Source: a bacterium (GTDB lineage: Bacteria > SZUA-79 > Acidulodesulfobacterales > Acidulodesulfobacteraceae). Taken from it: DNA of 9,280 bases. The position numbers and the translations under genes were made by a program. The notes below the pieces were generated by a model. It worked only from the letters and a program-made list of their open reading frames with translations, made no database searches and was not told where the DNA came from. The stretch is from the NCBI GenBank assembly GCA_021800805.1, contig JAJYYR010000026.1:1-9280 (forward strand), in the 5' to 3' direction. Below, in pieces: positions 1,010 through 9,280 of this stretch (position 1 is the stretch's first letter; every line of letters starts with the position of its first letter).

Positions 1010-2173
1010 ATGAAAAAAATACTAATTTTAGGAGGCGGCTTTGCCGGAATAGAAGCCGCAATACGGTTAAGGAAATATAATTTCGACGTAACGTTAATTT
1101 CCGAAAGAGATTTTATGTATATTTACCCGCTTTCTATATGGATTCCTACCGGCGCATTAGATTTTAAGGATGCGGCGCTGCCTTTAAACAAATTAAGCGC
1201 GGTCCATAAATTTAATTTGATAACGGACTCCGTGGTTAAAATATCTCCGAAAGAAAAGAAAGTTATATGTAAAAACGGTTCTTACGGTTTCGATTATCTC
1301 GTCATCGCCGTCGGCGCGGGGAAATCCAAACCGGAAGGAATAGAAAATACTTATTCTATTTGCGGCGCGCCTGAAGAATCGCTTAAAATAAAAGAGAAAT
1401 TAGCCGAATTGGTTAAAACCGGAAAAGGCAAAATAGCCGTGGGAATAGGCGGAAACCCAAAAGACCCTTCCGCTATGAGGGGCGGACCGGCTTTCGAAGA
1501 GCTGTTTAATATCGACAATCTATTAAGAGATAAAGGATTGCGCCATAACTTCGAATTAAATATCTTTGCTCCCATGGAAACCCCCGGTCTGCGTCTGGGC
1601 GATAAAGCGTATAAACTGCTGAACCGGTTTTACGAAAATCTTAAAATTAATAAATATTTCGGCAAAAAAATAAAAAGATTCGAAAAGGGTGCAGTCGTGT
1701 TTGAAGACGATTCAAGACTTGAAAGCGACCTGATTATTTTTGTTCCCGCCGGAAGCGCGCACGAGATATTTGCCGGCTCGGAACTGCCCCTTACCGAAGC
1801 CGGATTCATAAAAACCGACGACTATTTAAAAGTCGAGGGCATGGAGGACATTTACGCAATAGGGGATTCAGCCAGTCTCGACGGACCTCCTTTCAGGGGA
1901 AAGCAGGGGCATATAGCCGAAATGATGGCGGGTATTGCGGCGCACAATATAAACGAAAAAGAAGCCGGAACGAGTAATTATAAAGGCTACAAAGAGCATG
2001 TACATATCTTGTGCGTAATGGACAACGGGAAGGGCGCCGTTTATGTCAAAAGAGATGCTAATAAGGAAACGGTAATTGCCCTGCCGGTAATAGGACATCT
2101 TTTAAAAAGATTCTGGGGATGGTATTATAAAAACTCTAAATTAAACAGGTTTCCGAGGATTCCGGGGTTTTAA
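1010..2173 (+). CDS. Sulfide:quinone-oxidoreductase-like FAD-dependent flavoprotein
   Basis: A 387-residue protein of the pyridine-nucleotide-disulfide oxidoreductase superfamily that resembles sulfide:quinone oxidoreductase (SQR), a peripheral membrane enzyme passing electrons from sulfide to quinone. The N-terminal FAD-binding glycine motif is GGGFAGIEAA (8-17). DYLVIAVGAG (95-104) and YAIGDSA (282-288) are the second and third FAD motifs. KQGHIAEMM (298-306) matches the segment after the last FAD motif in SQRs. SQR has three functional cysteines: YSICGAPEES (C118) matches the flavin-linked one, and HILCVMDNGKGA (C335) matches the C-terminal redox Cys. The position of the middle redox Cys instead reads SAMRGGPAFE (154-163), with no Cys. 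A basic/aromatic tail (about 366-387) fits membrane attachment. The start has AAAGGA 11 bases upstream and GGGA nearer. It could oxidise sulfide atypically or use another sulfur substrate; the fold is secure, the substrate is not. Confidence 0.8.
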   Translation: MKKILILGGGFAGIEAAIRLRKYNFDVTLISERDFMYIYPLSIWIPTGALDFKDAALPLNKLSAVHKFNLITDSVVKISPKEKKVICKNGSYGFDYLVIAVGAGKSKPEGIENTYSICGAPEESLKIKEKLAELVKTGKGKIAVGIGGNPKDPSAMRGGPAFEELFNIDNLLRDKGLRHNFELNIFAPMETPGLRLGDKAYKLLNRFYENLKINKYFGKKIKRFEKGAVVFEDDSRLESDLIIFVPAGSAHEIFAGSELPLTEAGFIKTDDYLKVEGMEDIYAIGDSASLDGPPFRGKQGHIAEMMAGIAAHNINEKEAGTSNYKGYKEHVHILCVMDNGKGAVYVKRDANKETVIALPVIGHLLKRFWGWYYKNSKLNRFPRIPGF

Positions 2174-4067: not shown

Positions 4068-5306
4068 TTAAACCAGTCCGGATTTTTTTACTTCTTCAAG
4101 ATACATCAAAGCGTTGGTATTCATTTCAAGAATATCGGAAATCGAGGCGGAAGGGTTAATTCTCTTAAAAAGGGCGTCCGCCGTAATATAATCGGCGCTG
4201 TTATATGCATCCATAAATTCTGCTAATTCTCCTAACTTTCCTTTGTGTTCGACTAACGCTTCATAAATGACGTGGTCTATAGTTATTTTATCGAATAATT
4301 CTTTAATGGACATTCCCAGAGCTACATTGACTAAAGAAAGCATCCCCGCCAAAAAGGCTTTATCCGAAAGCCCTTTGTTTATATATTTTTTGCATATATC
4401 TTCCATCATCCTGCCTTTTATCATAGCGCTTTCCAATAATGGGTCGGACCTGAAGTCGCTTTTTTTAGAAGCGAGAACTATGGTGAGTATCCATCTGGAA
4501 ACATTGTCGTATCCCAAAAGCGCTATAGCCTGTTTTACCGAAGATATTTTTGCCATAAATTCGTAAGCTACCGAATTTATAAGCGTAAGCAGGCGATATA
4601 TCAGGTCGGGGGCCATTTTAAAAAGCGATTCGATTTCTTCTATATCCGCATTAGCCTGAAAGGAATTAAATATATTAAGCAGTATTACATAATCGGGGTC
4701 TAACGTAACGGAAGAAATTATGGAAGGCTTTTGAAAAAAATAACCCTGAAACAAGTCGAAGCCGAGGCTTTTGTAAAAGTGGAAGTCTTCGTCGGTTTCG
4801 ACTTTAGAGGCTATTAATTTCGCTCCGCAGCCTTTCAGGAGCATAAGCATTTCTTTTATTTCGGTCTTTGAATATTGTCTAACATCGAGTTTGACGTAAT
4901 CGGACAAAGACAGAAGCGGTTCCCATACTTCGTCGTATGCAAAATTATTTAGAGAAATCCTAAACCCTTTGCTTTTAAATTCTTTAACGATAGAAACGGC
5001 ATTGCCGTCGATTGTGCTTGTTTCAAGTATTTCAAGTACAATTTTGTCTTTCGGCAAAAGCTCTATCATACCCCTTTTTAAAATATCGGGATTTACGTTT
5101 ATAAATGCAGGATTTTCTCCCATCAGGACTTTAAGCCCCATATCGTATATATTTTCAAGTACGTTTGCGGTAGCGCTTAAATTATCGGATATCGATACGC
5201 CGGAAGAGTTTTCTTCGGCAGTGCTTCTGAATAGTATTTCATATCCGAATATGCTTTTGTCGGCGGTTATTATGGGCTGTCTGCCGATGAAGATTTGTTT
5301 GTTCAT
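4068..5306 (-). CDS. Degenerate-EAL plus HDOD signalling protein (YuxH/CdgJ type)
   Basis: A 412-residue cytoplasmic protein with an N-terminal EAL-like domain (about 1-200) and a C-terminal HDOD domain (about 201-400), the layout of YuxH/CdgJ-type regulators. Active EAL domains hydrolyse cyclic di-GMP. Here the opening GYEILFR (21-27) keeps the Glu, FINVN (68-72) keeps the Asn, LEILET (91-96) keeps the metal-ligand Glu, and YVKLD (137-141) keeps the Lys. However, the essential DDFG is NNFA (120-123), and AEGVE is ASKVE (166-170). Two metal or catalytic positions are therefore lost, and enzymatic hydrolysis is unlikely. In the HDOD part, APDLIYRLLTLINSVAY (232-248) and SSVKQAIALLGYDNVSRW (255-272) are the hallmark helices; it has no HD metal pair. 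Known relatives affect motility and type IV pili, which would suit a pilin-bearing cell. A near-consensus promoter precedes it, and the G-rich SD-like run lies almost against the ATG. Confidence 0.9.
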   Translation of the reverse strand: MNKQIFIGRQPIITADKSIFGYEILFRSTAEENSSGVSISDNLSATANVLENIYDMGLKVLMGENPAFINVNPDILKRGMIELLPKDKIVLEILETSTIDGNAVSIVKEFKSKGFRISLNNFAYDEVWEPLLSLSDYVKLDVRQYSKTEIKEMLMLLKGCGAKLIASKVETDEDFHFYKSLGFDLFQGYFFQKPSIISSVTLDPDYVILLNIFNSFQANADIEEIESLFKMAPDLIYRLLTLINSVAYEFMAKISSVKQAIALLGYDNVSRWILTIVLASKKSDFRSDPLLESAMIKGRMMEDICKKYINKGLSDKAFLAGMLSLVNVALGMSIKELFDKITIDHVIYEALVEHKGKLGELAEFMDAYNSADYITADALFKRINPSASISDILEMNTNALMYLEEVKKSGLV

Positions 5307-5476: not shown

Positions 5477-5743
5477 GTGGAAACGACGAAATTGTACTTT
5501 GAATGCGAAAATTGCGGACAGCCGTTTGACATCGAAATAAGCAGCGGGGATTTTGAATGTATAAAGGAATGCATATATGAGTTCAAAAGCGAATTTCATT
5601 GCTGCGGCAAAAACATCGAGATAAAAATAAATGTACGGCAATATCCGACAGGCGCATATAATAGTCATGATATATATTATAAGGGGCTTAGAAATTTAAG
5701 GACAGGCGATAATTTTAACGACATTGTGAATAAAATAACTTAA
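5477..5743 (+). CDS. Small Cys-rich, zinc-ribbon-like protein, unrecognised
   Basis: An 88-residue protein that I do not recognise. It starts with GTG: TTGGAGG ends 7 bases before it, and no ATG fits better. The N-terminal half carries FECENCGQPFDIE, with C10 and C13 as a CxxC knuckle, then C28 and C32 (CIKEC), then a C42-C43 pair in HCCG. C10/C13 with two of the later Cys could hold one zinc, so a zinc ribbon is plausible; the CC pair is unusual. The C-terminal half (about 47-88) has no Cys and mixes beta-like and polar sequence (KNIEIKINVRQY). There is no signal peptide or membrane segment, so it is probably cytoplasmic. A coiled-coil protein gene follows 19 bases on, suggesting co-transcription. 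The function is unknown; small Zn ribbons of this sort often bind nucleic acid or protein partners. Confidence 0.75.
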   Translation: METTKLYFECENCGQPFDIEISSGDFECIKECIYEFKSEFHCCGKNIEIKINVRQYPTGAYNSHDIYYKGLRNLRTGDNFNDIVNKIT

Positions 5744-5762
5744 GTGGGAGGGGGTAATAAAA

Positions 5763-6032
5763 ATGGAACATGATTTATCTAAGGAAAAAAATGAATTAGA
5801 AAAAGAAAAAAGTGATTTGGAAAAGCAAATCGCTGAAATTATCGGTAAAAAAGGCAATGATTTTTTTAATAAATTCAAAAAGGAAATTGAACTTGAAATT
5901 GAACTTGAATTTAAGAAATTTGCTTACGAAAAAATAGAAAAAAAAGAAAAGGAAAACGATATCGATAATATCAAAACCGATATTTTATCGTTAAGAGTGC
6001 TGTTAAAATATGCGATCAGAAATGACGAATAG
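5763..6032 (+). CDS. Small, highly charged coiled-coil protein, unrecognised
   Basis: An 89-residue, Lys/Glu-rich protein with no known family that I can name. Residues about 4-30 follow a heptad-like pattern (SKEKNELEKEKSDLEKQIAE) and should form a coiled coil. Residues 41-50 alternate acidic and hydrophobic (EIELEIELEF), encoded by an exact 12-bp tandem duplication (5883-5906). A second Lys/Glu helix and LSLRVLLKYAIRN near the end complete it. There is no Cys, signal peptide or membrane segment. The SD GGAGGGGG lies just upstream at 5747-5754, and the gene follows the Cys-rich gene by 19 bases, so the two are probably one transcript. It may be a structural or adaptor partner of its neighbour, but nothing in the sequence proves this. 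Confidence 0.7.
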   Translation: MEHDLSKEKNELEKEKSDLEKQIAEIIGKKGNDFFNKFKKEIELEIELEFKKFAYEKIEKKEKENDIDNIKTDILSLRVLLKYAIRNDE

Positions 6033-6108: not shown

Positions 6109-6537
6109 ATGACGTTAAATGAACAAATAAAATCCGACTTTTTAACCGCCAGAAAAAATAACGATAATACAAAAAAGAATATACTTACGATGATTCTTAG
6201 CGATGCGCTAAAACTTACAAAAGAGAAGAATCATAGCGATACCGTAAGCGACGACGATATTATTAAAATAATAAAATCATGGATAAAAAAAACGGAACAG
6301 TCTATCGAAATATTAACGGCTAACAACAAAGACGCTTCGGAGCTTTCTAAAGAAAAAGAGATACTTTTATCGTATATTCCAAAAACATGGTCGCATGAAG
6401 AAACCAAATTGCATATCGAAAGGATTTCTAAAGAAAAAAACAGCAAGGAAATCGGCATTATAATGAGAGAGCTTAAAACTGATTATAACGGTTTATACGA
6501 CAACAAAACCGCGTCCGAAATTATCAGGAGCTTATAA
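6109..6537 (+). CDS. YqeY/GatB-like domain protein
   Basis: A 142-residue protein of the YqeY family (GatB/YqeY domain), close to the usual length of about 148. It starts with MTLNEQIKSDFLTARKNND, matching the family's MSLKEQL..D...A...KD opening. KKTEQSIEIL (60-69), then SELSKEKEILLSYIPKTWS (78-96), match the conserved KQR.ES...F......A.KE..E...L..YLP core. IIMRELKTDYNGLYDNKTASEII (117-139) matches the C-terminal GKVM..L.....G..DG..... part. The domain resembles the tRNA-binding tail of GatB, the aspartyl/glutamyl-tRNA amidotransferase subunit, but the stand-alone protein lacks the catalytic part and its role is unsettled. It often lies near rpsU/dnaG/rpoD, but not here. AAAGGAGG (6093-6100), 8 bases before the ATG, is a near-perfect ribosome binding site. 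Confidence 0.88.
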   Translation: MTLNEQIKSDFLTARKNNDNTKKNILTMILSDALKLTKEKNHSDTVSDDDIIKIIKSWIKKTEQSIEILTANNKDASELSKEKEILLSYIPKTWSHEETKLHIERISKEKNSKEIGIIMRELKTDYNGLYDNKTASEIIRSL

Positions 6538-6601
6538 AAAGGGAATGTTTATGATAAGAGCGTGTTATGTATGGGGTATTTATGCGAACTGCGGTTTTCA
6601 A

Positions 6602-6640
6602 TGGTAGGCGCCGCGGGCGTGGGGGGGGGCGGGGTCTCGA
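6602..6640. other. GC-rich patch with a G9 run, possible G-quadruplex or tRNA-end-like relic
   Basis: In a strongly AT-rich gap this stretch holds GGCGCCGCGGGCG followed by a run of nine G, a C and four G, enough G runs to form a quadruplex on the plus strand. It is bounded by TGGTAGGC (6602-6609) and GGTCTCGA (6633-6640). Both 8-mers also occur, in the same order and orientation, in the tRNA-Val fragment at 7632-7639 and 7646-7653. The likeness may be chance. Confidence 0.4.
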
Positions 6641-6701
6641 TAAAATTGCTCAATACGATTTGAGCGTAATTTTTACAAATATAGCCGATTTAAATAGCCA
6701 C

Positions 6702-6730
6702 TTGACAAATAGTGAAGTATTCAATATTAT
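6702..6730 (+). promoter_or_regulatory. Strong sigma-70 promoter of mscL, with a palindromic spacer
   Basis: A perfect TTGACA (6702-6707) is followed after 17 bases by TATTAT (6725-6730), putting the transcript start near 6737, about 65 bases before mscL. The spacer contains AATAGTGAAGTATT (6708-6721), an imperfect palindrome that could be an operator. Confidence 0.75.
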
Positions 6731-6801
6731 ATAAAAAATAAGAATGGATTAATCGACGATTTTAGCGTTAGATTAAAACGGACTACGCAGGGATATTACT
6801 T

Positions 6802-7278
6802 ATGGGAAGTTTTATTAAAGATTTTAAAACGTTTTTGCAGCGCGGTAATGTAATTGACATGGCCGTGGCATTTGTAGTCGGTGTAGCTTTTTCCGCCATT
6901 GTCACTTCCTTGGTAAAAAATGTGATAATGCCGCCCATCGGCCTCCTTCTGGGCAAGGTGGATTTTAGCAATCTGTTCCTGCTCCTTCACGAGGGTAAGA
7001 CTCCGGGCCCTTACGCGACGCTGGCCGCGGCAGAGAAAGCGGGGGCGGTGACCCTAAATTATGGATTGTTCATTAATTCTATCATCAGTTTTCTGATTAT
7101 TGCTCTGGTGATATTCAGTATGGTGCGGGCTATCAATCGCCTCAATCCTAAGCCGGCGGCGCCGGCCGTAACTAAGAACTGCCCATTCTGCGACACCAGT
7201 ATTCCTCTGGCGGCCAAACGCTGCCCCAATTGTACCTCAAATCTAGAAGCCGCTGATTCTGCCTCGCGAGCATCTTAA
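6802..7278 (+). CDS. mscL: Large-conductance mechanosensitive channel with a C-terminal zinc ribbon
   Basis: This is the inner-membrane channel that opens under high membrane tension and releases solutes on sudden osmotic downshock; it works as a homopentamer. The first 112 residues are typical MscL: the N-terminal amphipathic helix MGSFIKDFKTFLQRGNVIDM, then TM1 with AVAFVVGVAFSAIVTSLVKN (21-40), IMPPIGLLLG (42-51) leading into the periplasmic loop, and TM2 around 88-108 (GLFINSIISFLIIALVIFSM). At 158 residues it exceeds the usual 130-140. The extra tail holds NCPFC and RCPNC (C127, C130, C141, C144), a rubredoxin-like zinc ribbon seen in a subset of MscL proteins. AGGGA (6789-6793) lies 8 bases before the ATG. 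The gene has its own promoter and is clearly richer in G+C than its neighbours (33 of 60 bases at 6961-7020), so it may have been acquired horizontally. Confidence 0.95.
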   Translation: MGSFIKDFKTFLQRGNVIDMAVAFVVGVAFSAIVTSLVKNVIMPPIGLLLGKVDFSNLFLLLHEGKTPGPYATLAAAEKAGAVTLNYGLFINSIISFLIIALVIFSMVRAINRLNPKPAAPAVTKNCPFCDTSIPLAAKRCPNCTSNLEAADSASRAS

Positions 7279-7407
7279 ACCGGTTGCCTTGCGCGATGTT
7301 CGATGTTCCGCAATATCTGAATAAATTGCCGACGCTATTTCCTTGGTGACGTATTTATCTTTCATAAACTTGCGCCAAAAGGTTTTGCCGCGTTTACAGA
7401 TATTCAT
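7243..7407 (-). CDS. Short hypothetical reading frame overlapping the mscL 3' end (doubtful)
   Basis: A 54-codon frame on the minus strand opens at ATG 7407 and runs MNICKRGKTFWRKFMKDKY..., ending inside mscL. It is basic, with a plausible helix VTKEIASAIYSDIAEHRTSR in the part lying outside mscL (7279-7407). That part is GC-richer than the AT-rich DNA to its right. A weak AGGA lies about 11 bases upstream. I do not recognise it. It may be the truncated start of a lost gene whose remainder was replaced by mscL, or a chance frame. Confidence 0.25.
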   Translation of the reverse strand: MNICKRGKTFWRKFMKDKYVTKEIASAIYSDIAEHRTSRKATGLRCSRGRISGF

Positions 7408-7631
7408 TATTATTGCATCCTAACTAAAACTGCAAATAAATTCTATCTATCTTTATTTTATATGATTTTTTATGCGATTTAAATTGTATATAACTTAATC
7501 TAATTTTAAGTAGTAAACGGATAGCAATATGGTAGTAAAAACATCTAATTCCTATACATATTTATAAATTTTTATGCATATGGCTGCCAAGAAGAATGTT
7601 GTCCGAAGTGCTTGTTTATTGCGGTTTTATC

Positions 7632-7677
7632 TGGTAGGCACGGGCGGTCTCGAACCGCCGACCCCTACCGTGTCAAG
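7632..7677 (-). tRNA. 3' fragment of tRNA-Val(GAC), probable attachment-site half of an integrated element
   Basis: Read on the minus strand, this is the 3' part of a tRNA. The anticodon loop TTGACAC (7676-7670) has anticodon GAC. Next come the 3' side of the anticodon stem GGTAG, the variable loop GGGTC, a perfect T arm with GGCGG pairing to CCGCC around TTCGAGA, the acceptor strand CGTGCCT, discriminator A and encoded CCA (7634-7632). The order and wording closely resemble bacterial tRNA-Val(GAC). Upstream of the loop, the expected CTACC is GTTTC, so the stem cannot pair. No D arm or AGGCACG 5' acceptor strand is present nearby. The gene is therefore not functional as it stands. A break at the anticodon stem-loop is the usual crossover zone for tyrosine integrases, so this is probably an att duplicate, with the intact tRNA at the element's other end. 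A plain truncated tRNA is the alternative. Confidence 0.85.
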
Positions 7678-7775
7678 AAACTTTCATAAAATTAATAAAT
7701 TAGCTTTTTGCTTGATATTGCAGATTATACCGCACTTTTAGACCATTTCATATTTTTCGTATTTTTAGTTTATTT

Positions 7776-7804
7776 TTGTATATTTATTTATATTTTGTTA
7801 TAAT
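7776..7804 (+). promoter_or_regulatory. Candidate promoter for the two-TM membrane protein
   Basis: TTGTAT (7776-7781) and TATAAT (7799-7804) are 17 bases apart, about 50 bases before the ATG at 7854. The -10 box is perfect, but the region is almost entirely A/T. Confidence 0.5.
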
Positions 7805-7853
7805 TTTGTTATATTTGCAATAAAATATCAAAAAGGGTGGTTATTCTCAAGAA

Positions 7854-8726
7854 ATGCTAAAATGGCTTTTAGATAAAAGAAAATGGGTTTATAGGAATTA
7901 TTATGATTATTTTATTGGTGTATTATTAGTCGTCGTAATAATTTTTCTGGTATATTTATTCCATTCATTCCCCAAAAACTCCGGTTGGCAAGGCTCTTTT
8001 GTTGTTTCGGCAACAATGATATTGGCTATCGCAGCTTTTGCTCAAATACAATCGCAAATATCGAATCAAAAAGATAGACAAAAGGGCATCTATAATATTT
8101 TTATTGAAAGGATTAATAGTTGGATTGAAGTTATAGACAAAACTCGTGAAGAAATAGATGGACAAAAGCCTCCGTCGCCTCTAACTTTTGCGGAAGCAGT
8201 TACATTGGCGGCTTATAAAAGAACAACAGAAAGTGGTAAAACCGTAACGTTAACTTCAGAATCCGATAGTGCCTTAGAGAGGGCAATTAACAAAGTTAAT
8301 GAGTATTTAAAGCACGATTATATTTTATTAAATATTTTAAAAAGGAGTGAAGAATATCAAATATTATTAAAGGAAAGCGGGCTATTAAAGCCAGAATCGA
8401 TATCTAAATTAATATCTTTGTTTGATTATATTTATCTTTTTAATTTAGAAATTAATGAATTAAATAATGAAAACAATAAACAGAAACAAGATTTAATTCT
8501 TTTTAAAAGCCCTATGCTTAAAGTTTTATGTATTGAATGCCTTTTTTCTCTTTTTAGAGAGGCAAACTTAGAAAGAAAGAATAAAAAAATTATTGAAAAA
8601 TATAAGGAAGATTTGAAAGATTTTTTTAATGGTTTCAAAGGTGAAAATTATGCTTATTTAGAAAATATTCGTCAGAGAATTAAAAAGATTTCCGATGAAT
8701 TCTATATAAAAGGTTTAGATAAATAA
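7854..8726 (+). CDS. Two-transmembrane protein with a long helical cytoplasmic part, unrecognised
   Basis: A 290-residue protein of no family that I can name. A basic N terminus (LLDKRKWVYRNYY) leads into TM1 at about 20-37 (FIGVLLVVVIIFLVYLF). A short linker with a Pro-Lys turn follows, then TM2 at about 48-65 (SFVVSATMILAIAAFAQI). The remaining ~225 residues should be cytoplasmic and mostly helical, with coiled-coil-like stretches around 66-101 (QISNQKDRQKG, then IERINSWIEVIDKTREE), 198-215 and 236-285. There is no nuclease, protease or NTPase motif. Two Cys (C226, C229) lie close together in LCIECL. G+C is very low (13 of 60 bases at 8461-8520), unlike its neighbours, which suggests transfer. 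The SD is weak (AAGGGTGG, 13 bases away). It lies just inside the presumed island edge and 29 bases before a DNA methyltransferase gene. A sensor, anchor or toxin-like membrane partner is possible but unproven. Confidence 0.8.
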   Translation: MLKWLLDKRKWVYRNYYDYFIGVLLVVVIIFLVYLFHSFPKNSGWQGSFVVSATMILAIAAFAQIQSQISNQKDRQKGIYNIFIERINSWIEVIDKTREEIDGQKPPSPLTFAEAVTLAAYKRTTESGKTVTLTSESDSALERAINKVNEYLKHDYILLNILKRSEEYQILLKESGLLKPESISKLISLFDYIYLFNLEINELNNENNKQKQDLILFKSPMLKVLCIECLFSLFREANLERKNKKIIEKYKEDLKDFFNGFKGENYAYLENIRQRIKKISDEFYIKGLDK

Positions 8727-8755: not shown

Positions 8756-9280
8756 ATGCAAATAGGCATATTAAATAAAGAATATGTTAAAACGGTTGAT
8801 TATTCGTGGGATTATAGGGGCGAAAACACCAAATCCTATACCCACGGAATACACACCTATCCGGCAATGTTTATCCCTCAAGTCGCAAATAGGATTTTAG
8901 AAAATTACAGCCGGCCGGGCGATACTGTTTGTGATATTTTTTGCGGGTCCGGAACCGCTTTGGTGGAGAGCAAGCTTTTAGGAAGAAACGCTTACGGAGT
9001 AGATTTAAACCCGCTTGCCGTTTTTTTGGCCGAAGCAAAGACTAAGCCGTTAAATCCGGCAAAGATAAGGTCGGAATATACTCAATTACTGTCCGCGATA
9101 GACGGTATAAAAGACGGCGAAATTAAAAGACCGGATTTTAATAATATCGATTTTTGGTTTAAGGAAGAAGTTATCGTTAGACTTGCAAAAATAAAGGAAG
9201 GATTATCGAGGATAAAGGATAAAGATATAAGAAATTTTTTAACAGCTTCATTTAGCGAGACGGTAAGACTGTCTTCAAAT
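8756..9280 (+). CDS. Site-specific amino-DNA methyltransferase, 3' end outside the window
   Basis: The first 175 residues of a DNA methyltransferase of the N6-adenine/N4-cytosine type are visible, with the frame open to the window end. Residues 28-41 (YTHGIHTYPAMFIP) are the HG.H.YPA.F.P block typical of one branch of these enzymes. It is followed by the SAM-binding motif DIFCGSGT (60-67), LVESKLLGRNAYG (69-81) and the acidic D83 in VDLNPLA. The catalytic (D/N/S)PP(Y/F) motif is not yet reached, so it should lie beyond 9280, and the target base and site cannot be read. No SD precedes ATG 8756, but the frame is open back to 8723 (ATA ATT AAT GAA...), so the true start may be non-ATG or coupled to the upstream gene. 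It may belong to a restriction-modification system, a defence system or be an orphan enzyme; genes to the right would decide. Confidence 0.9.
   Translation, partial: MQIGILNKEYVKTVDYSWDYRGENTKSYTHGIHTYPAMFIPQVANRILENYSRPGDTVCDIFCGSGTALVESKLLGRNAYGVDLNPLAVFLAEAKTKPLNPAKIRSEYTQLLSAIDGIKDGEIKRPDFNNIDFWFKEEVIVRLAKIKEGLSRIKDKDIRNFLTASFSETVRLSSN

Follow-up and report, generated by a model that had tools for sequence, protein, structure and literature searches.

INTRODUCTION

Elements that insert into tRNA genes by means of a tyrosine integrase bring the 3' half of the tRNA with them in their attP. Recombination makes the tRNA whole again at the end where the integrase lies and leaves the original 3' half at the opposite end. 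Further elements that insert into the restored gene give rise to tandem fragments. Tandem integration at a shared att site has reportedly occurred with, for example, genomic islands in Bordetella petrii and with SGI1. Tycheposons are another kind of tRNA-flanked mobile segment, with a tyrosine recombinase and variable cargo. According to passages of one published study, ICEs and genomic islands that use tRNA genes have a partial tRNA copy at one end and a complete copy at the other (PMC9897764). The same passages expect partial tRNA copies left by integration to be pervasive across prokaryotic genomes (PMC9897764), and thus the kind of feature described here is already known.

We analyzed a stretch of 9,280 nucleotides (the window) from a contig of 26,259 bp (protein index). 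As in ICEs and genomic islands, a partial 3' tRNA copy stands at one end of what appears to be an inserted element. A relative in genome G002 also resembles ICEs: its complete tRNA adjoins an integrase, it carries type IV secretion system (T4SS) genes and ParA/ParB, and the position of an HTH_17 gene is like that of an excisionase gene. Unlike with ICEs, only one end is visible in the window, and no relaxase is recognized in the G002 relative. The locus resembles the tandem integrations of Bordetella petrii and SGI1 in that several elements and remnants have accumulated at one tRNA, with a 3' half at the boundary of each; it differs from them in that some segments are short or decayed and the neighboring Val tRNAs, GAC and CAC, are both used. 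The relatives described here may be likened to tycheposons in their tRNA-flanked segments, tyrosine recombinase, and variable cargo, but they carry type IV secretion genes. Insertion at a tRNA gene is an ordinary kind of event. It can be read closely here because relatives present the site empty, filled, and repeatedly filled.

RESULTS

We found that positions 7632 to 7676, read on the minus strand, reproduce the 3' part of a tRNA gene: all 45 nt are identical to the intact tRNA-Val(GAC) that ARAGORN reports in the relative locus L004. The sequence begins with TTGACAC, the anticodon loop with anticodon GAC, and runs through CCA. The 38-nt stretch from the 3' side of the anticodon stem to CCA occurs once in the window (7632 to 7669, minus strand), and no match to it, with up to 3 mismatches allowed, is contained in any of 200 dinucleotide shuffles. 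On the 5' side of the loop, 7 of 31 bases agree with tRNA-Val, among them C31 at 7677, and the 5' half is therefore absent. Since ARAGORN reports no tRNA gene in the window, 7632 to 7677 is a fragment, extending from position 31/32 (the start of the anticodon loop) through CCA. A preliminary description made from the letters alone had read the minus strand as the 3' part of a tRNA-Val from the anticodon loop through CCA, with the match ending one base into the 5' side of the anticodon stem and the 5' half missing. The 45/45 identity to the L004 tRNA, the agreement of C31, the 7/31 match beyond it, and the ARAGORN count of zero bear out this reading in full. No exact copy of the 45 nt is present in the viral collection.

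The fragment is followed on the minus strand by a conserved trailer (7554 to 7631) that aligns with the DNA 3' of tRNA-Val ends in L118 and L107. The trailer would lie outside the right-hand element, on the chromosome side or in the arm of an older element. The tRNA fragment, the trailer homology, and matches to the ends of the G002 and G013 elements together make it very probable that 7632 to 7677 is an att junction left by an element that targets tRNA genes and that extends to the right.

Relatives of the locus were found by scanning genome contigs with the Pyr_redox_2 protein of the window (1010 to 2173), which gave 15 loci. Eleven of these were taken into genomes G001 to G011; three loci of other named organisms and the second locus of one genome were left out. 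The analysis covered 30 genomes of the G002 family, G001 to G011 included. L004 has much of the left flank in common with the window (Pyr_redox_2, a methyltransferase, EAL-HDOD, and a small ORF). In that locus, the shared flank is followed by about 2 kb of other DNA, an intact tRNA-Val(GAC), and then DsrE-like and Sqr-like genes (named by eye), which occupy the side where the window has a 290-aa ORF and a methyltransferase. The trailer of L004 is unlike that of the window. In contrast, a window-type trailer follows an intact tRNA-Val in both G012 (L118; 56 of 78 positions identical) and G016 (L107; 46 of 58), an identity of 72 to 79%, and 0 of 500 dinucleotide shuffles reach the score in either case. 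In these alignments, homology spans the tRNA 3' half and the trailer and stops at the anticodon loop. Because a second fragment lies 4.2 kb downstream of the intact tRNA-Val in L107, that locus is empty for the window's element alone. The empty site in relatives for which the preliminary description proposed a search is thus found, as an intact tRNA with its trailer in L107 and L118 and as an intact tRNA beside the left flank in L004. The two closest genomes do not help here: there is no match in G008, and the sole match in G001 is an intact tRNA-Val(CAC).

To the right of the fragment, 7678 to 7853 would be the inner end of the inserted element, made up of the att-proximal arm and an upstream region. 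Here, 7678 to 7728 aligns over 53 columns, 38 of them identical, with the element side of a junction in G013 (L111), and 7688 to 7828 is 76% identical to the end of the G002 element (L103, 270 to 389); 0 of 500 shuffles reach either score. The G013 match covers both sides of the junction. Over window positions 7504 to 7728, the far junction of the G013 element is 83% identical overall (106 of 128 columns on the left side of the fragment and the 38 of 53 on its right), and no shuffle out of 500 reaches the score on either side. The cargo at the G013 junction, a GmrSD-like protein and another methyltransferase, is unlike that of the window. An apparent match of the element-side arm to that of a fragment in G011 (L041) was dropped, with 25 of 500 shuffles reaching the score.

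The inner end is followed on the plus strand by a gene for a 290-aa protein (7854 to 8726), likely membrane anchored as judged by eye, in the place of the 239-aa first ORF of the G002 element. It has no Pfam match reaching the cut-off and no PADLOC match at an E value of 0.01. The protein index lists five relatives besides itself, with longest contigs of 988 to 7593 bp. No match was found among the locally searched loci of more than 4 kb; the two pieces from G002, which have a differing ORF in that place, were outside that search. Next comes an N6/N4 DNA methyltransferase, type II-like (8756 to 9280, plus strand), which is cut by the window end (PF01555, 8.6e-14; PADLOC MTase_II, 3.7e-49). It is 83% identical over 175 aa, and 86% identical at the DNA level, to its counterpart on G002:C126. 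Pattern scans of the viral collection gave no relative for either of these two proteins. By Pfam, there is no tyrosine integrase in the visible 1.6 kb of the element and no T4SS gene in the window. The preliminary description had placed the element to the right of about 7677 and had noted a DNA methyltransferase there; the matches to the G002 inner end and to both sides of the G013 junction agree with the former, and the Pfam and PADLOC matches agree with the latter.

We found a complete element on contig G002:C126 (30,009 bp). A tRNA-Ala(GGC) 3' fragment that begins at the anticodon loop lies at 83 to 127 and an intact tRNA-Ala at 29883 to 29958, both on the minus strand. The integrase gene adjoins the intact tRNA-Ala and is preceded by an HTH_17 gene, and the DNA between the two ends encodes the methyltransferase, an MvaI/BcnI endonuclease, ParA, ParB, and a MoxR ATPase. 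The T4SS genes are VirD4/TraG-like, VirB4/TraC-like, and TrbI/VirB10-like, with a weak CagX match, and their NCBIfam matches are all below the cut-offs. A Pfam scan for relaxases, which covered 32 of the 38 ORFs of 60 aa or more, gave none above the cut-off; the ORF at L103 12743 to 13480 falls just short with Replic_Relax (PF13814; 24.7 bits, cut-off 25.3) and matches no NCBIfam model. Among plasmids, 1848 records match the VirB4-like protein, all at less than 60% identity (20.5 to 23.4% among the 10 matches listed). The integrase has 11 relatives in the viral collection, at 24 to 34% identity.

G013:C1 carries a 31-kb element between tRNA-Val fragments at 4790 and 36041, with an integrase beside the first fragment. 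Twenty of the 38 ORFs of the G002 element are matched there in collinear order, T4SS genes included, and the two elements share 69% identity in the integrase and 90% in the HTH_17 protein. Given its end sequence and methyltransferase, which amount to about 0.7 kb (less than 1 kb) of the right side, the window's element is most likely a relative of the approximately 30-kb T4SS elements of G002 (at tRNA-Ala) and G013 (at tRNA-Val).

The preliminary description had taken the DNA left of the fragment for older chromosome. This holds left of about 6.5 kb, and the DNA left of about 6540 closely matches L001 and L010. It does not hold for about 6.59 to 7.63 kb, which carries apparent scars of earlier insertions. 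At 6590 to 6638 (minus strand) we found what reads as a decayed tRNA-Val 3' end and trailer, an older att scar. Its first part, 6590 to 6609, is a direct repeat of 7620 to 7639, and, for every one of five Val references, the whole scores higher than any of 1000 simple shuffles. Directly beside it, 6639 to 6695 (plus strand) is 89% identical to L103 696 to 752, inside the first ORF of the G002 element, and 0 of 500 shuffles reach the score; we read it as what remains of that ORF in an older, G002-like element. Both the decayed tRNA end and the ORF piece are also present in L001 and L010.

A gene for MscL (6802 to 7278, plus strand; PF01741, 1e-38) forms a GC-richer patch between the two tRNA-end remnants, with a GC content of 0.48 in 6751 to 7250 against 0.35 in 6251 to 6750 and 0.30 in 7501 to 8000. 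The gene, whose start is also present in L010, was probably acquired. Between MscL and the fragment, 7300 to 7407 (minus strand) is probably what is left of the N-terminal part of a tyrosine integrase of a second type; its reading direction leads away from the tRNA fragment. Thirty-six of its residues align, across a 12-residue gap, with the beginning of the L106 integrase (E value of 2.4e-4 in a small local set), and the assignment is also backed by position, since intact integrases stand at a like position in L105 and L106. Because the decayed tRNA end, the piece of a G002-type ORF, and the integrase remnant all lie to the left, at least one older insertion, and probably two, appear to have preceded the present one at the site. 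As separate observations, the MscL protein has a zinc-ribbon-like C-terminal end (UPF0547, just under the cut-off), and the YqeY gene (6109 to 6537) was not found at the corresponding place in L004 or L038.

Across the family, a 67-nt query gave 49 matching places in 23 of the 30 genomes (E ≤ 1e-8); the other 7, for which genome completeness is not given, had no match at this threshold. The places were classed as 23 intact Val-GAC genes, 5 intact Val-CAC genes, and 21 fragments, the last in 13 genomes. In all 21 fragments, identity to the tRNA reaches past the anticodon loop on its upstream side by 0 to 5 nt, which suggests a crossover at the loop; the query began at the loop, so fragments beginning further 3' may have been missed. 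Compared with the Val-GAC query, the fragment on G016:C146 has 9 differences over 45 positions, and the one in G005 is of the Val-CAC type. This last fragment lies in L042 (G005:C5, 6158 to 9513), flanked by UmuD-like peptidase (Pfam S24) and UmuC-like (by eye) genes on one side and by a PIN-domain gene paired with a small ORF on the other, and it indicates that tRNA-Val(CAC) is also used as a target.

An intact tRNA-Val and a downstream fragment on the same strand occur together on 7 contigs of 7 genomes (G021:C12, G017:C4, G016:C28, G020:C1, G026:C48, G006:C227, and G013:C3), at a spacing of 0.2 to 17.6 kb. In G017 (L106), for example, the order over 15.9 kb is a DsrE-like gene, the intact tRNA, an integrase, a type III restriction-modification pair, and the fragment. 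Pfam confirmed a tyrosine integrase beside the tRNA or fragment in G002, G006, G013, G016, G017, G020, and G021; in G026 and, with the frame broken into two parts, in G015, one was detected only by tblastn. At L109 (G013:C3, 7853 and 8039), the intact tRNA-Val and the fragment are 186 bp apart with an identical trailer, which resembles a postexcision scar. In L038 (G009:C145, 3404 to 12131), CobO (Pfam) and RNase R-, UbiB-, and RibF-like genes (by eye) lie between two tRNA-Val 3' fragments, and this block interrupts a HicAB segment that is continuous in L039. A reading of the L038 segment as one neat element was dropped, with core-type genes set inside the split HicAB segment.

DISCUSSION

We propose that an integrative element entered tRNA-Val(GAC) and that 7632 to 7677 is its distal attachment junction. 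A tyrosine integrase would have joined the tRNA gene to an attP that has a tRNA 3' half of its own, and the crossover would lie within or beside the anticodon loop. The tRNA would then have been made functional again at the far, right-hand end by the 3' half that the element brought, while the original 3' half, along with the trailer behind it, would have been displaced to 7632 to 7677. From this displaced 3' half, the element would start at about 7678 and run rightward past the window end. The integrase and the intact tRNA are predicted about 30 kb to the right, and the element may be capable of conjugative transfer.

Methyltransferases are also mobile on their own, and the right-hand element could be a small nonconjugative island, such as a restriction-modification island with its own integrase, that obtained its methyltransferase and end sequence by module exchange. 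Such segments exist in the family. Those between Val 3' halves in L105, L106, L107, and L039 span 0.9 to 17.6 kb, carry restriction-modification genes (L105 and L106), HicA (L039), or toxin-antitoxin-like pairs by eye (L107), and have no match to the G002 T4SS proteins; the window itself has no T4SS gene. Even so, we consider a small island unlikely, given that the end sequence and the methyltransferase match G002 in the same order and orientation and that the junction matches the G013 element. A decayed or rearranged element, with the fragment as an old scar and no intact partner end left in the genome, strikes us as rather improbable. Decayed remnants do lie nearby (6590 to 6695 and 7300 to 7407), and the L038 fragments bound core-type genes (CobO by Pfam, the rest by eye) in a way that resembles rearrangement. 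Against this, the 45 nt are free of mutations and the methyltransferase reading frame runs uninterrupted to the edge of the window, which together suggest a recent event.

We see hardly any chance that the tRNA half is a coincidence or a functional non-att sequence, such as a tRNA-derived small RNA, an antisense RNA, or a CRISPR spacer. Rfam reports nothing in the whole window at gathering thresholds. A match to the antisense RNA HPnc0260 at 7518 to 7670 falls below threshold (47.2 bits against a cut-off of 59) and, by eye, rests mainly on complementarity to the tRNA half; moreover, such fragments number 21 in 13 genomes, several of them beside integrase genes. In a loose Rfam run over 7500 to 7800, this match, which overlaps the tRNA half, and a PyrD leader (E value of 1.7) were set aside.

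An att junction with a relative of the G002 and G013 elements on its right thus remains our preferred reading. A broader idea, which we put forward tentatively and regard as somewhat doubtful, concerns a lineage of such elements in these uncultured bacteria: one backbone of about 30 kb (ParA/ParB, T4SS, MoxR, HTH_17, and integrase) might carry variable, often restriction-modification cargo at its integrase-distal end, switch between tRNA-Ala(GGC) and tRNA-Val(GAC) with a repeat that starts at the anticodon loop, and transfer without a recognizable relaxase. One backbone at two tRNAs in two relatives would allow a direct comparison of integrase specificity.

The junction would also supply an exact mobile-element boundary for a group met here as metagenome bins only. 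It further points to tRNA-Val(GAC), and at times the neighboring tRNA-Val(CAC), as a heavily used insertion site in the family, with restriction-modification and toxin-antitoxin cargo. In a text search, PMC6776010 gave no match to the terms integrase, conjugative, genomic island, or transposase and one tRNA count in a table.

Smaller features of the locus also recur among relatives. Two small ORFs in the window (5477 to 6032), of 88 aa (no Pfam family) and 89 aa, adjoin tRNA-Val(GAC), on either side, in several relatives (L044, L045, L046, and L047). In L046 compared with L004, tRNA-Val(GAC) and its upstream flank are inverted relative to the neighboring small ORFs and the DsrE-like operon, and G002 has both orientations of tRNA-Val relative to the small ORFs, on two contigs. 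A terminator-like stretch after a pilin-like gene (658 to 732) recurs in L004, L002, L014, and L117, and local BLAST found three extra copies of it in L004.
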